NCBI RefSeq assembly: GCF_900168265.1
Contig: NZ_FVZF01000006.1
Location: forward strand, 1 to 64,000
Origin: Salegentibacter salarius
GTDB taxonomy: Bacteria; Bacteroidota; Bacteroidia; Flavobacteriales; Flavobacteriaceae
Length of the DNA: 64,000 nt
Direction of reading: 5' to 3'
Below, in pieces: positions 12,058 to 58,701 of the stretch. The notes beneath the pieces were generated by a model. That model was not told the DNA's origin, made no database searches, and saw only the letters and a list, made by a program, of their open reading frames with translations. The position numbers and the translations under genes are program-made. Position 1 is the first letter of the stretch. Every line of letters starts with the position of its first letter.

Positions 12058-12210
12058 CGTCATCCTGAATTTATTTCAGGATCTAGTACCAGTTAAACTT
12101 AGAATCCCGAAGTTAATTCGGGATAAAGTCTGAAATAAATTCAGCTTGAAGAATTAGACGTTTAATATTCAAAGTAAATTAATAAGAGATTTCCGCCTTC
12201 GCGGAAATGA
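12058..12210 (+). repeat. CGTCATCCTGAA/TTTCCGC hairpin element, copy 1
   Basis: The element begins CGTCATCCTGAA, with the dyad ATCCTGAA (12062-12069) / TTCAGGAT (12075-12082), and ends with TTTCCGC (12190-12196), loop CTTC, GCGGAAA (12201-12207) and TGAC. The ends GTCAT and ATGAC are inverted. A shorter copy with the same ends lies at 22116-22209. In both copies the last hairpin ends exactly 15 bases before an ATG. Confidence 0.65.
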
Positions 12211-22115: not shown

Positions 22116-22209
22116 GACGTCATCCTGAACTCGTCACTTCGAGCGGAGTCGAGAAGTCAGGATCTAGCATATTGATTATTAGATAGATTTCCGCCTGCGC
22201 GGAAATGAC
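22116..22209 (+). repeat. CGTCATCCTGAA/TTTCCGC hairpin element, copy 2
   Basis: ACGTCATCCTGAAC with the dyad ATCCTGA (22122-22128) / TCAGGAT (22157-22163), enclosing CACTTCGAGCGGAGTCGAGA, and ending in TTTCCGC (22188-22194), loop, GCGGAAA (22199-22205), TGACA. It is the same element type as 12058-12210, with its last hairpin again 15 bases before the next ATG. Confidence 0.7.
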
Positions 22210-24357: not shown

Positions 24358-24426
24358 ATAGTAGAATTAAAGATTTTGGAACCTCTTCTAAGCTTTAGTT
24401 GAGATTATATGAAATGTCTTATTTTC

Positions 24427-24500
24427 GTCAAGCTGAACTTGTTTCATCTTCTAACATGATCTTATCAACGTATTAGATCCTGAAACAAGTTCAGAATGAC
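24427..24500. repeat. Imperfect inverted repeat, 20-base arms
   Basis: GTCAAGCTGAACTTGTTTCA (24427-24446) and TGAAACAAGTTCAGAATGAC (24481-24500) form a long stem with a 34-base loop, with mismatches near the ends. It lies in the 223-base gap between the MutS-like and YdjM-like genes. The GTCA..TGAAC module is shared with the elements at 12058 and 22116. It could end transcription, but no T-run follows. Confidence 0.7.
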
Positions 24501-24580
24501 GCGATTGAAAACTTTATTACTATCTAACTTTTCTTTTCGAAAAGTAGAAGTTACAAATCGGTAAAGAAAGGAAATCATAA

Positions 24581-46717: not shown

Positions 46718-46727
46718 CCGGTTAAAA

Positions 46728-46748
46728 CTTCGACAGGCTCAGTTTGAC
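46728..46748 (+). repeat. CTTCGACA repeat, single left arm
   Basis: ACTTCGACAGGCTCAGTTTGA is a variant of the left arm found at 57986, 58143, 58524 and 58679. No right arm lies within reach. It sits between the convergent GT2 and GT14 genes. Confidence 0.65.
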
Positions 46749-56942: not shown

Positions 56943-58000
56943 TGAATCCATTTTTAGAAATAGCCGGCCGTAAAATAGGACTTGATTATCCGCCTCTTGT
57001 AATTGCCGAAATAGGTATTAATCACGAAGGCTCACTTCAAGTAGCTAAAGAAATGGTAGATGCTGCCCAGAGAGCAGGTGTGGAAATGATAAAGCATCAA
57101 ACTCATATTGTTGAAGATGAGATGAGCAGTGAGGCAAAAAAAGTAATACCGGGGAACGCCGATATTTCTATTTATGAAATTATGGAACGTTGTTCTTTAA
57201 ACGAAAAAGATGAGCTGGCACTAAAAAACTATGTGGAAAATAAAGGCATGATTTTTATTTCCACTCCATTTTCCAGGGCTGCAGCCAATAGACTTGAAAA
57301 TTTTAATGTACCGGCATATAAAATAGGTAGTGGGGAATGCAATAACTATCCATTACTTGAGCATATTGCTGGTTTTGGAAAACCTGTAATTTTAAGTACA
57401 GGGATGAATAGTTTAAAAAGTATAGAAAAAGCCGTTCGGATATTTGATGATAAAAAAGTGCCGGTAGCTTTACTACATACCACCAATCTTTATCCTACTC
57501 CTGCTCATTTAGTGAGATTTGGAGCGTTTCAGCAACTAAAAGAAGCATTTCCGGAAAAAGTTGTGGGACTTTCAGATCATACTTTAAATAACAATGCCTG
57601 CCTTGGAGCAGTAGCTTTAGGAGCATCCATCCTTGAAAGACATTTTACCGACCATATGAACAGAACGGGCCCTGATATTAATTGCAGTATGGATGAAAAG
57701 GCCTGTGGGGCACTTCTTAAAGATGCCACAGAGATTGCGCTGATGCGAGGTGGTGAAAAAAAAGCAGCTAAAGAAGAGCAGGTCACTATCGATTTTGCTT
57801 TCGCCAGTGTTTGTACTATTGCACCTGTAAAAAAAGGAGAATATTTTTCTAAAGAAAATATATGGGTTAAACGACCCGGCAAAGGAGGAATCTCAGCTGA
57901 ACAGTATAGTAAGGTGCTAGGTAAAAAGGCGAAACATGACATTAAATCTAATGTTCAGGTAAAACGGGAAGATATTGTAAATGGGTCTTCGACAAGCTAA
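56942..58000 (+). CDS. neuB: N-acetylneuraminate synthase with repeat-derived end
   Basis: A 352-residue enzyme that condenses PEP with a ManNAc-type sugar to give a nonulosonic acid. The TIM barrel has [84 protein letters not shown] and [20 protein letters not shown], and an antifreeze-like SAF domain follows (about 285-345). The last residues, VNGSSTS, and the TAA stop are encoded by a CTTCGACAAGCT repeat element rather than by a normal gene end. The enzyme core is complete, so activity is probably kept. Confidence 0.93.
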
Positions 58001-58060
58001 GACTGACGATGTCACGTAGCGGTTGCATTGAGGTCGTCACACTGAGCCTGTCGAAGTGTG
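57986..58060 (+). repeat. CTTCGACA inverted-repeat element, full copy (E1)
   Basis: The left arm TCTTCGACAAGCTAAGACTG (57986-58005) continues to GAC, and the right arm GTCACACTGAGCCTGTCGAA (58036-58055) to G plus TGTG. The arms are inverted around a 28-base middle. The neuB stop TAA falls inside the left arm, at the position where other copies read CTCA. Confidence 0.85.
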
Positions 58061-58142
58061 TTTGTTAAGTTGGAATTTTTATTTTATGGTATTCTAATTC
58101 TAAATCGAGGGATTTTAAAGAAAATTGAAGGTGTTAAATAGG

Positions 58143-58198
58143 TCTTCGATAAGCTCAGACTGACGGGGTAACTCAGACTACAGCGGTGTTTCATTGAG
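58143..58198 (+). repeat. CTTCGACA element, left part only (E2)
   Basis: TCTTCGATAAGCTCAGACTG (58143-58162) and AC, followed by a middle that aligns with E1 (TACAGCGGTGTTTCATTGAG against GTAGCGGTTGCATTGAGG). The right arm is missing. It ends about 25 bases before the start of the GIY-YIG gene. Confidence 0.7.
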
Positions 58199-58221
58199 TA
58201 CGGAATCATATTATTTTGGAT

Positions 58222-58545
58222 ATGAAAAAGTTTTATGTTTATATAGTTGAGTGTAGTGATGATTCTTTTTATACGGGGGTTACCTCCAGGCTTCAAAAGC
58301 GAATAGATGAGCATAATGCCGGCTTACATCCTAAAGCTTATACCTATAGTAGAAGGCCGGTGAGTCTAAAATGGGTTCAAGAATTTAATGATTCCTTTTC
58401 AGCTTTTTTAGTAGAAAAACAGATTAAAGGATGGAGTCGGAGGAAGAAACTTGCATTGATTGAGCAGGATTGGGATAAATTGGTTAAATATTCGAGAAAT
58501 TATACGGAATATGGGAAGGATGGTTCTTCGACAAGCTCAGACTGA
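58222..58545 (+). CDS. Small GIY-YIG endonuclease (UPF0213-like) with repeat-derived end
   Basis: A 107-residue protein from ATG 58222 (a TTG six bases earlier is in frame). FYVYIVECSDDSFYTGVTSR holds the GIY-YIG core, here with YVYIV and YTG (T in place of I), R in TSRLQKRIDEHN, and the last conserved part is SAFLVEKQIKGWSRRKKLAL with the catalytic E. These are putative nucleases without known targets. Its last codons and its TGA stop (GSSTSSD, stop) are encoded by the left arm of repeat element E3, and E2 lies just upstream. It is out of place in a sugar locus, splitting neuB from neuC. A link to the repeats is inferred. Confidence 0.9.
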   Translation: MKKFYVYIVECSDDSFYTGVTSRLQKRIDEHNAGLHPKAYTYSRRPVSLKWVQEFNDSFSAFLVEKQIKGWSRRKKLALIEQDWDKLVKYSRNYTEYGKDGSSTSSD

Positions 58546-58599
58546 CGGTAGCTTTTAGCTGATGCATCGAAACCGTCACACTGAGCTTGTCGAAGTGTG
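58524..58599 (+). repeat. CTTCGACA inverted-repeat element, full copy (E3)
   Basis: The left arm TTCTTCGACAAGCTCAGACT (58524-58543) and GAC, then the right arm GTCACACTGAGCTTGTCGAA (58575-58594) and G, TGTG. The GIY-YIG reading frame enters the left arm and stops at TGA 58543-58545. It can also fold as a terminator-like stem of about 20 pairs. Confidence 0.85.
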
Positions 58600-58678
58600 G
58601 TTAGGAGTTGAGATTTTGTTTTGTTTAAGTTCGATCTGTTGAATATTTAATTTAAAAAGAGCTGAGGGGTTTTAAAGG

Positions 58679-58701
58679 TTCTTCGACAGGCTCAGACTGA
58701 C
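58679..58701 (+). repeat. CTTCGACA element, left arm only (E4)
   Basis: TTCTTCGACAGGCTCAGACT and GAC, about 50 bases before the neuC start. No right arm follows. The 207 bases between the GIY-YIG stop and neuC hold only E3, E4 and A/T-rich spacer. Confidence 0.7.

Follow-up and report, generated by a model that had tools for sequence, protein, structure and literature searches.

Why does the gene for a small nuclease sit in the midst of a cluster of inverted repeats? The question is raised by a stretch of 64,000 nucleotides from Salegentibacter salarius (GCF_900168265.1, contig NZ_FVZF01000006.1, positions 1-64,000; hereafter the window), near the right end of which a GIY-YIG nuclease gene lies among repeats that recall repetitive extragenic palindromes (REPs). 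An earlier note, made from the sequence alone, had suggested a nuclease-REP system akin to that of REPs and their REP-associated tyrosine transposases (RAYTs). The suggestion is supported here, given that in the whole genome the repeat arms lie at the nuclease gene and at 46728, and that they adjoin such genes in many relatives. Our favoured answer, to which we assign a probability of roughly two in three, is that the cluster is the locus of a two-part selfish or semi-domesticated system, consisting of a small GIY-YIG nuclease (UPF0213-like, with an Slx1-like fold) and its cognate REPs of the CGTC class. According to the accessible part of the paper that described them, CGTC-tagged REPs have a 5' CGTC, TGTC or CCTC tag followed by a hairpin, form head-to-head dimers and occur as dispersed copies (Di Nocera, De Gregorio, Rocco 2013, PMC3733652).

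Repeats and small nuclease genes occur together

With up to two mismatches, the arm CTTCGACAAGCTCAG has seven matches in the window, at 46728(+), 57987(+), 58042(-), 58144(+), 58526(+), 58581(-) and 58681(+), whilst 100 shuffled windows gave a mean of 0.03 and a maximum of 1, so that 0/100 reached seven. Six of the seven lie between 57987 and 58695, about 720 bases, around the GIY-YIG gene, just as the earlier note had described, and the single further arm that it had seen, at 46728, also proved to be the only other clear unit in the genome. When the S. salarius genome (3.33 Mb in 48 contigs) was searched for exact copies of CTTCGACARGCTCAG, five were found, all on the window contig (in the cluster and at 46728); one mismatch to CTTCGACAAGCTCAG (the AAG form) added two cluster copies and C15:17293, the sole place outside the window. 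The same genome has 10 matches to PF01541, and the window gene alone adjoins these arms.

Among relatives, CTTCGACARGCTCAGNNTGAC is present in 20 of 99 genomes, S. salarius included, and eight of the 19 others (G006, G013, G019, G038, G052, G055, G063 and G087) have an arm cluster with a small GIY-YIG gene inside or next to it. Seven of 49 regions chosen by their arms (2.2-8.3 kb, from 15 other genomes) have a small GIY-YIG gene at most 500 bp from an arm; in two more (L097 and L098) such genes are present at a greater distance but belong to other subfamilies, and none was seen in the remaining 40.

We then took the best 80 of 544 relatives of the nuclease, with one genome per species scanned. 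Besides Bacteroidota, these loci (the 80 set) include records labelled Chlorobiota, Ignavibacteriae, Nitrospinota, Nitrospirae, Chloroflexi, Patescibacteria and Eremiobacterota. The exact arm type (up to one mismatch) occurs within 700 bp of the gene at 37 of the 80 loci, with 135 arms in 131.8 kb near the genes against 8 in 345.6 kb far from them. Pattern 1 (GTC, a 5-bp stem with up to one mismatch, GAG, loop, CGA) places units within 500 bp at 76 of the 80 loci, with 244 units in 103 kb near against 42 in 374 kb far and a single one in Markov copies. A REP lies on both sides, within 300 bp, of 53 of 75 genes (five loci with short flanks were dropped from this count), compared with 2 of 108 control open reading frames (ORFs).

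Since the flanks of the 80 set had been read before pattern 1 was written, the fair test is that of unseen genes from an order-wide search of 246 genomes, for which this pattern and the second definition given below were both fixed beforehand. The unseen set comprised 26 of 30 supplied loci (four had already been seen) and 60 loci chosen among the matches listed, and 4 of these 86 genes were dropped as duplicates. A unit was found near 60 of the remaining 82 genes (219 units in 81.7 kb near against 56 in 156.7 kb far), the proportion by falling relatedness being 23/23, 25/39 and 12/20. Linkage of nuclease and REPs is thus far above chance in most relatives examined.

The linkage does not extend to every GIY-YIG gene. 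Among small genes found via PF01541, units lie near 14 of 29 with pattern 1 only and near 14 of 23 with both definitions, several loci of the latter set also belonging to other sets; as about half to two thirds of such genes have units, the linkage belongs to particular subfamilies and not to all. Subfamilies such as L004, L055, L067, L098, L276, L277, L279, L280, L282, L284, L285 and L288 have no unit within 500 bp. Among longer GIY-YIG genes, 0 of 9 in one set had a GTC-GAG..CGA unit, and 1 of 7 in another had a single doubtful hairpin.

Nuclease genes of the alpha-Proteobacteria

A tblastn search of plasmid records with L064, a nuclease of a second group, matched 33 records, of which 24 are from Rhizobium, Sphingobium, Shinella or Sinorhizobium; Azospirillum lipoferum 4B and Novosphingobium are also represented. 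We analysed 18 of the 33, mostly from alpha-Proteobacteria, leaving out 13 near-copies and two Neisseria gonorrhoeae records. For these we used definition 2, namely the tag of the 2013 paper (CGTC, TGTC or CCTC) and an 8-bp stem with one mismatch, the loop being relaxed to 3-8 nt. With this definition, REPs lie within 300 bp on both sides of 14 of the 18 genes, a count that is not blind because the definition was written after the plasmid flanks were known, against 0 of 24 control ORFs (p = 6e-8); at least one side is occupied at 16 of 18 genes against at most 3 of 24 controls, and the two definitions combined give 18/18. In a count that ignored the tag, CGTC outnumbered every other tetramer at the ends of hairpins near the gene (31/206, against 11/450 further off), and GTAG was found at 0 of the 206. 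The alpha-Proteobacterial units, for example CGTCATCCTCGGGCTTGACCCGAGGATCCA, fit the 2013 description, having the tag, a stem of 8-9 bp that mostly starts with AT and often a CCA tail.

These controls bear on the possibility that small GIY-YIG genes and REPs merely share intergenic hot spots, whether by chance or by hitch-hiking. Both do lie between genes, and one locus of a Y1 transposase, L309, has a TGTC-tagged hairpin on both sides, unlike the other 25 Y1 loci. Such an explanation would have to accommodate the paucity of units at longer GIY-YIG genes (0/9 and 1/7), the Y1 loci with any REP match (3/26), the both-sides counts at control ORFs (0/24 and 2/108) and the agreement between REP type and nuclease clade described below, and we consider it very improbable indeed.

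Each arm is a tagged hairpin

Near 42 nuclease loci we collected every GAGC[TC]TGTCGA core, whatever its flanking bases, which gave 130 units of type A, the type of the window. Over the five bases on each side of the core, 85% of positions are paired, compared with 54% when partners are shuffled (maximum 58.5%), and at two stem positions C-G, G-C, A-T and T-A exchange for one another. NGTC stands directly before the stem in 105 of the 130 units (TGTC in 93, CGTC in 5, AGTC or GGTC in 7), and in the window the tag is CGTC in six of seven units and AGTC in the other. Because the stem pairs covary whilst tag and loop stay constant, each arm is best described as a tagged hairpin. The earlier note had recognized two full elements and two left-arm copies; the arms are as it described, but the repeat unit is the single arm, and its full elements are head-to-head pairs of units. 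In the window units a 5-bp stem that starts with A encloses an 11-nt GAG...CGA loop. Other unit types at other loci retain the GTC (CTTCGACTCCGCTCAG, GTCACTTCGAGTG...TATCGAGAAGT, GTCATTCTGA and GTCATTGCGA), and some nuclease genes are surrounded by tandem arrays of many units. At seven nuclease loci (L063, L379, L381, L385, L387, L388 and L390) the gene adjoins hairpins like GGTGGCT-GAG...CGA-AGCCACC, mostly without a GTC tag; loss of the tag in hairpins of this type may follow an enzyme clade.

The units of the window are listed in Table 1. In the window, two head-to-head pairs with facing tags were counted, a/b (57984-58059) and d/e (58523-58598). The latter folds strongly (-26.2 kcal/mol, z -8.3), whereas lone units of the window are weak or nearly unfolded, unit d on its own reaching just -0.1 kcal/mol. 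The nuclease gene lies between units c and d, and its outer neighbours are a NeuB gene upstream and an Epimerase_2 gene. Its stop codon, TGA (58543-58545), is the TGA within the arm's CTGAC, so that the tail SSTSSD is read from the arm and the 3' end of the gene is inside an element, as first reported; the NeuB gene likewise ends in an arm (ORF end at 58000). The earlier note had also raised the tails SSTSSD and SSTGSD, and both recur in other genomes (loci L123, L168 and L119).

Table 1. REP units and nuclease gene of the window; the unit letters are those used in the text
Feature	Position	Strand	Description
REP unit a	57984..58007	-	Tag CGTC, stem AGTCT, degenerate core TAG; overlaps the 3' end of neuB; head-to-head with b
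REP unit b	58036..58059	+	CGTC-ACACT-GAGCCTGTCGA-AGTGT; weak hairpin, -4.1 kcal/mol
REP unit c	58141..58164	-	CGTC-AGTCT-GAGCTTATCGA-AGACC; single, upstream of the nuclease gene
Small standalone GIY-YIG nuclease gene	58222..58545	+	107 aa from the ATG at 58222; stop inside unit d
REP unit d	58523..58546	-	CGTC-AGTCT-GAGCTTGTCGA-AGAAC, stem weak; contains the stop of the nuclease gene; head-to-head with e
REP unit e	58575..58598	+	CGTC-ACACT-GAGCTTGTCGA-AGTGT; paired with d
REP unit f	58678..58701	-	Tag AGTC; single, downstream of the nuclease gene
REP unit	46725..46748	-	CGTC-AAACT-GAGCCTGTCGA-AGTTT; alone between two genes; only other clear genomic unit of this type

The window also holds CGTC- or TGTC-tagged palindromes of other families at 12058, 12189, 22187 and 24426-24501, some of them paired and one from a family of 111 copies. 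Of the relic of a GIY-YIG gene that the earlier note had placed beside repeats at the left end of the window, the relic itself stands, as an N-terminal piece at 324-398 (E 2.4e-5). The adjoining palindrome (448-474) is a different one, which we do not assign to the arm family; it is perfect (CCTCACAGGTTTTCAAAACCTGTGAGG).

Cognate pairs of nuclease and REP type

Two such pairs are found in Sinorhizobium meliloti CP090106.1 (3.72 Mb), which has two small GIY-YIG genes and two REP families. Family 1 has four copies (up to three mismatches), none of them more than about 310 bp away from the first nuclease gene, and family 2 has 60 copies dispersed over the record, of which five lie within about 640 bp of the second; controls with the reversed patterns gave 0. 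No match to a Y1 transposase was found in this record. CP090106.1 (L249/W01) is labelled plasmid pSymB, yet given its size and its ctrA and suf genes it is probably a chromosome.

S. salarius repeats this pattern of one REP type confined to its nuclease and one dispersed. Type A is confined to the window gene and 46728, whilst a second family, CGTCATCCTGAACTTGTTTCAGGATCT, has 111 copies (up to three mismatches), members of which crowd around a tandem pair of nuclease genes on contig C8, with 11 places (up to five mismatches) between C8:7562 and 10023. A REP type can stay with its nuclease, or it can reach dozens of copies in scattered places.

The REP type also goes with the nuclease clade. 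On a quick tree of 139 proteins over 98 columns, in which the labels of REP type had been assigned from the flanks by ourselves and 31 proteins without a label were excluded from the counts, the 108 labelled proteins require 19 changes of REP type against 54-66 in 60 shuffles. In the Flavobacteriaceae/f1 subset (44 rows) there are six changes against 17-25 in shuffles. Similar far flanks were seen in only 27 of 1228 pairs of the same type.

The dispersed families are also informative about the idea that the REPs serve as terminators or regulatory hairpins for the nuclease gene, which might, for example, regulate itself by cutting or binding its own transcript. In the flanks of relatives the REPs do hug the start and stop codons of the nuclease genes, and 16 of 139 proteins match the pattern of the arm-encoded tail. 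But REP families of the same nucleases are dispersed in 60 and 111 copies, and the tandem arrays around some genes fit poorly with such a role. Only two Rfam matches were obtained in the region, both far under the gathering score, and a regulatory RNA was accordingly rejected as a candidate. We regard this explanation as highly unlikely.

Empty sites and a nested unit

The gap between sufB and sufC of A. lipoferum 4B contains a nuclease gene with two REPs on either side of it. In A. ramasamyi (96.6% identical to A. lipoferum 4B over the matched pieces) and A. oryzae (95.7%) the sufB-sufC spacer is about 90 bp and has neither nuclease nor REP, so that gene and REPs are jointly absent at the empty site. 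In Shinella sp. PSBB067 (L252), the same gap as in A. lipoferum (L256) is occupied by another nuclease with another REP type.

A single GTCACTTCGAGCGGAGTCGAGAAGT unit lies at 22118-22165 of the window in the loop of a CGTC REP, CGTCATCCTGAAC...TCAGGATCT, uninterrupted copies of which occur elsewhere in the S. salarius genome. At the filled site the outer REP runs to ...CTCGT, is followed by 22 bases and continues with TCAGG...; compared with the empty form it lacks one T, and nothing is duplicated. Judged from this alignment, the site appears to be one example of a single unit following GT. It was the one case when all fetched loci except the 46 viral ones were searched for nested REPs.

The principal rival to the system proposed here casts the nuclease as a free-standing homing endonuclease, for which older REPs, spread by something else, are landing sites where its gene inserts into or beside them. 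GIY-YIG is a classic homing-nuclease fold, the nuclease gene sits between REPs, and two relatives, L249 and L064, give weak matches below the cut-off to a group I intron endonuclease model, although the window protein gives none. Against this, the S. salarius type and family 1 of S. meliloti occur almost only at the nuclease, no older dispersed population being seen there, and such confinement argues against homing into pre-existing repeats. Nor do the empty Azospirillum sites contain a REP, and a search for Y1 transposases gave no match in the S. meliloti replicon, nor in eight of the 20 genomes that have arms. On balance we consider a homing endonuclease unlikely, though less so than the other rivals.

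The alternative mobilizer, a RAYT, is disfavoured both by position and by absence. Among the arms listed in the 20 genomes, none has a Y1_Tnp match (PF01797) within 5 kb, and eight of these genomes lack any PF01797 match; the S. meliloti record and the count at Y1 loci agree with this. Y1/RAYT transposases are not beside these repeats, and the system is independent of them.

The nuclease protein

The identity of the window protein as a GIY-YIG nuclease was borne out by its match to PF01541 (60.8 bits, with a cut-off of 22.6). Residues Y7, Y17, G19, R27, H31 and E65 are invariant in alignments of 13 and 25 sequences, and we take the conserved Tyr7, Tyr17, Arg27 and Glu65 to be the catalytic residues. 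An AlphaFold2 model of the protein has a predicted local distance difference test score (pLDDT) of 89, with residues 97-107 under 50; its nearest folds are UPF0213 structures, followed by Slx1. The only PDB sequence matches up to E 0.1 are 1zg2 and 1ywl, both UPF0213 and also best by fold. As for a defence system, PADLOC returned no match for the window protein or L064, and L249 gave only a weak homing-endonuclease match; this candidate was rejected.

The fold invites the thought that the nuclease is a domesticated enzyme of genome maintenance, which would resolve REP cruciforms or branched DNA without spreading REPs. One of the three COG2827 genes of Caulobacter crescentus has an SOS box, as reported in the accessible part of PMC1839093, and this too would suit a maintenance role. 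However, empty sites exist, one nuclease copy is truncated (L105, 67 codons) and the match of another falls into two pieces (H20/L259), all of which indicates that the gene is dispensable, and we hold this role to be improbable, if slightly less so than a regulatory one. C. crescentus is itself a species with CGTC REPs.

Evidence that weighs against a nuclease-REP system

Several observations count against the two-part system. Some concern its extent. In relatives, the majority of arms have no detected nuclease nearby, which is expected of dispersed non-autonomous repeats but nevertheless limits the linkage. Under the definitions used here, there is no unit within 500 bp of 22 of the 82 unseen genes, or of 22 of all 139 small genes; on post hoc inspection of the unseen misses, the GAG...CGA hairpin of nine has a different stem and in most of them lacks the GTC tag, five others show a GTCATT hairpin and eight show neither. 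The hairpins at Y1 locus L309 belong here as well.

Other points concern the samples and definitions. The query alignment for the 80 set was built largely from repeat-linked proteins, and near-copies remain in the plasmid set, where four Sphingobium loci represent one place and two Shinella loci another. On the plasmid set, where pattern 1 was the first to be tried, it gave units at just 2 of the 18 loci, with 7 in 23.2 kb close to the genes and 8 in 89.5 kb at a distance. Conversely, definition 2 does no better than controls on the 80 set (upstream 1, downstream 2, both sides 0 of 75, against 4, 10 and 0 of 108 for control ORFs), and so two definitions are needed.

The remaining points concern the repeats. 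The outermost stem pair is formed in just half of the type-A units, and the 5-bp stem of the window units is shorter than the 8-9 bp given in the accessible part of the 2013 paper (PMC3733652). The exact borders of the insertion at sufB-sufC are not readable. Of four S. meliloti REP sites compared with other records, the three aligned with K101 showed no clean border, but larger mosaics or divergent flanks.

Proposed mechanism and implications

Taking both sides together, we continue to favour a dedicated nuclease with cognate REPs. The small GIY-YIG nucleases are probably the dedicated enzymes of CGTC REPs, and the nuclease stands as a strong candidate for the enzyme, hitherto missing, behind the copying or movement of these widespread repeats. 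As GTC and GAG...CGA are constant whilst the stem letters change with pairing kept, we infer that tag and loop are the recognized part. The enzyme would recognize them on an extruded or single-stranded REP and would nick or cut beside the GTC tag, after which host repair or replication could copy units into near and, more rarely, distant sites.

GIY-YIG enzymes hydrolyse DNA and are not known to become covalently linked to it. Spreading by hydrolysis without such a link would be copying of the homing or repair type, and not HUH transposition. A broader proposition is that small GIY-YIG nucleases mobilize the CGTC REP superfamily across bacteria, as a second, independently evolved REP class beside RAYT/GTAG. 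In that case a hydrolytic, structure-specific nuclease would read the GTC tag and the hairpin, break repair would do the copying and single units would insert at a GT step. We see the chances of this proposition as evenly balanced.

Among the matches listed, judged by title and the start of the abstract, we found no paper in the open-licence PubMed Central (PMC) literature that links GIY-YIG enzymes to REPs, and two later papers mention CGTC just where they cite the 2013 paper. If the proposed system is real, it would answer the question of the dedicated enzyme of CGTC REPs, which by the accessible text of that paper was open in 2013 (PMC3733652). It would also provide a role for a large family usually annotated just as GIY-YIG nuclease or UvrC-like. 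With a nuclease of ~95-110 aa and two cognate pairs in one plant symbiont, S. meliloti, the question is directly testable.

Comparison with known systems

The window protein is like the UPF0213/COG2827 proteins (YhbQ, YazA, BH0048) both in sequence (1zg2, 1ywl) and in fold. Eukaryotic Slx1, a nuclease of branched DNA, ranks after them as a fold match. Slx1 carries a PHD-type zinc finger and acts with Slx4, according to the accessible part of PMC7017083, whereas the window protein consists of the nuclease domain and a short tail. The free-standing GIY-YIG nucleases of phages are likewise standalone genes of the same superfamily, but differ in their surroundings: viral-contig relatives gave six REP-like matches in 267 kb, at 4 of 46 loci, with convincing units only at L240. 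At L240, unlike other viral relatives, the phage-contig nuclease lies among three GTCATTCT units.

With the CGTC REPs, the window units share the tag with hairpin and the head-to-head dimers. In its accessible part, the 2013 paper gives a stem of 8-9 bp mostly starting with AT, a loop of 4-5 nt and a CCA tail, reports such REPs from five phyla, with S. meliloti, A. lipoferum and G. forsetii among the positive species, and leaves their dedicated transposase or other enzyme open (PMC3733652). The alpha-Proteobacterial units beside nuclease genes match that description, whilst in most Bacteroidota units found here the stem is variable and 5 bp long, and the GAG...CGA loop is constant. A further difference is that the 2013 paper, as far as accessible, names no dedicated enzyme (PMC3733652), and one is proposed here.

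The closest parallel is to the REPtrons, in which GTAG REPs are served by a RAYT of the HUH Y1_Tnp type. In both cases the enzyme is flanked by REPs, the enzymes are specific to their repeats, and few enzymes are found with many repeats. Here, however, a GIY-YIG nuclease unrelated to the RAYTs takes their place, and GTC replaces GTAG as the tag. By analogy, then, the nuclease-REP system would work like a REPtron without being one, both enzyme and tag being different; it comprises a repeat and a dedicated nuclease and, should the copying prove hydrolytic, would deserve a class of its own.

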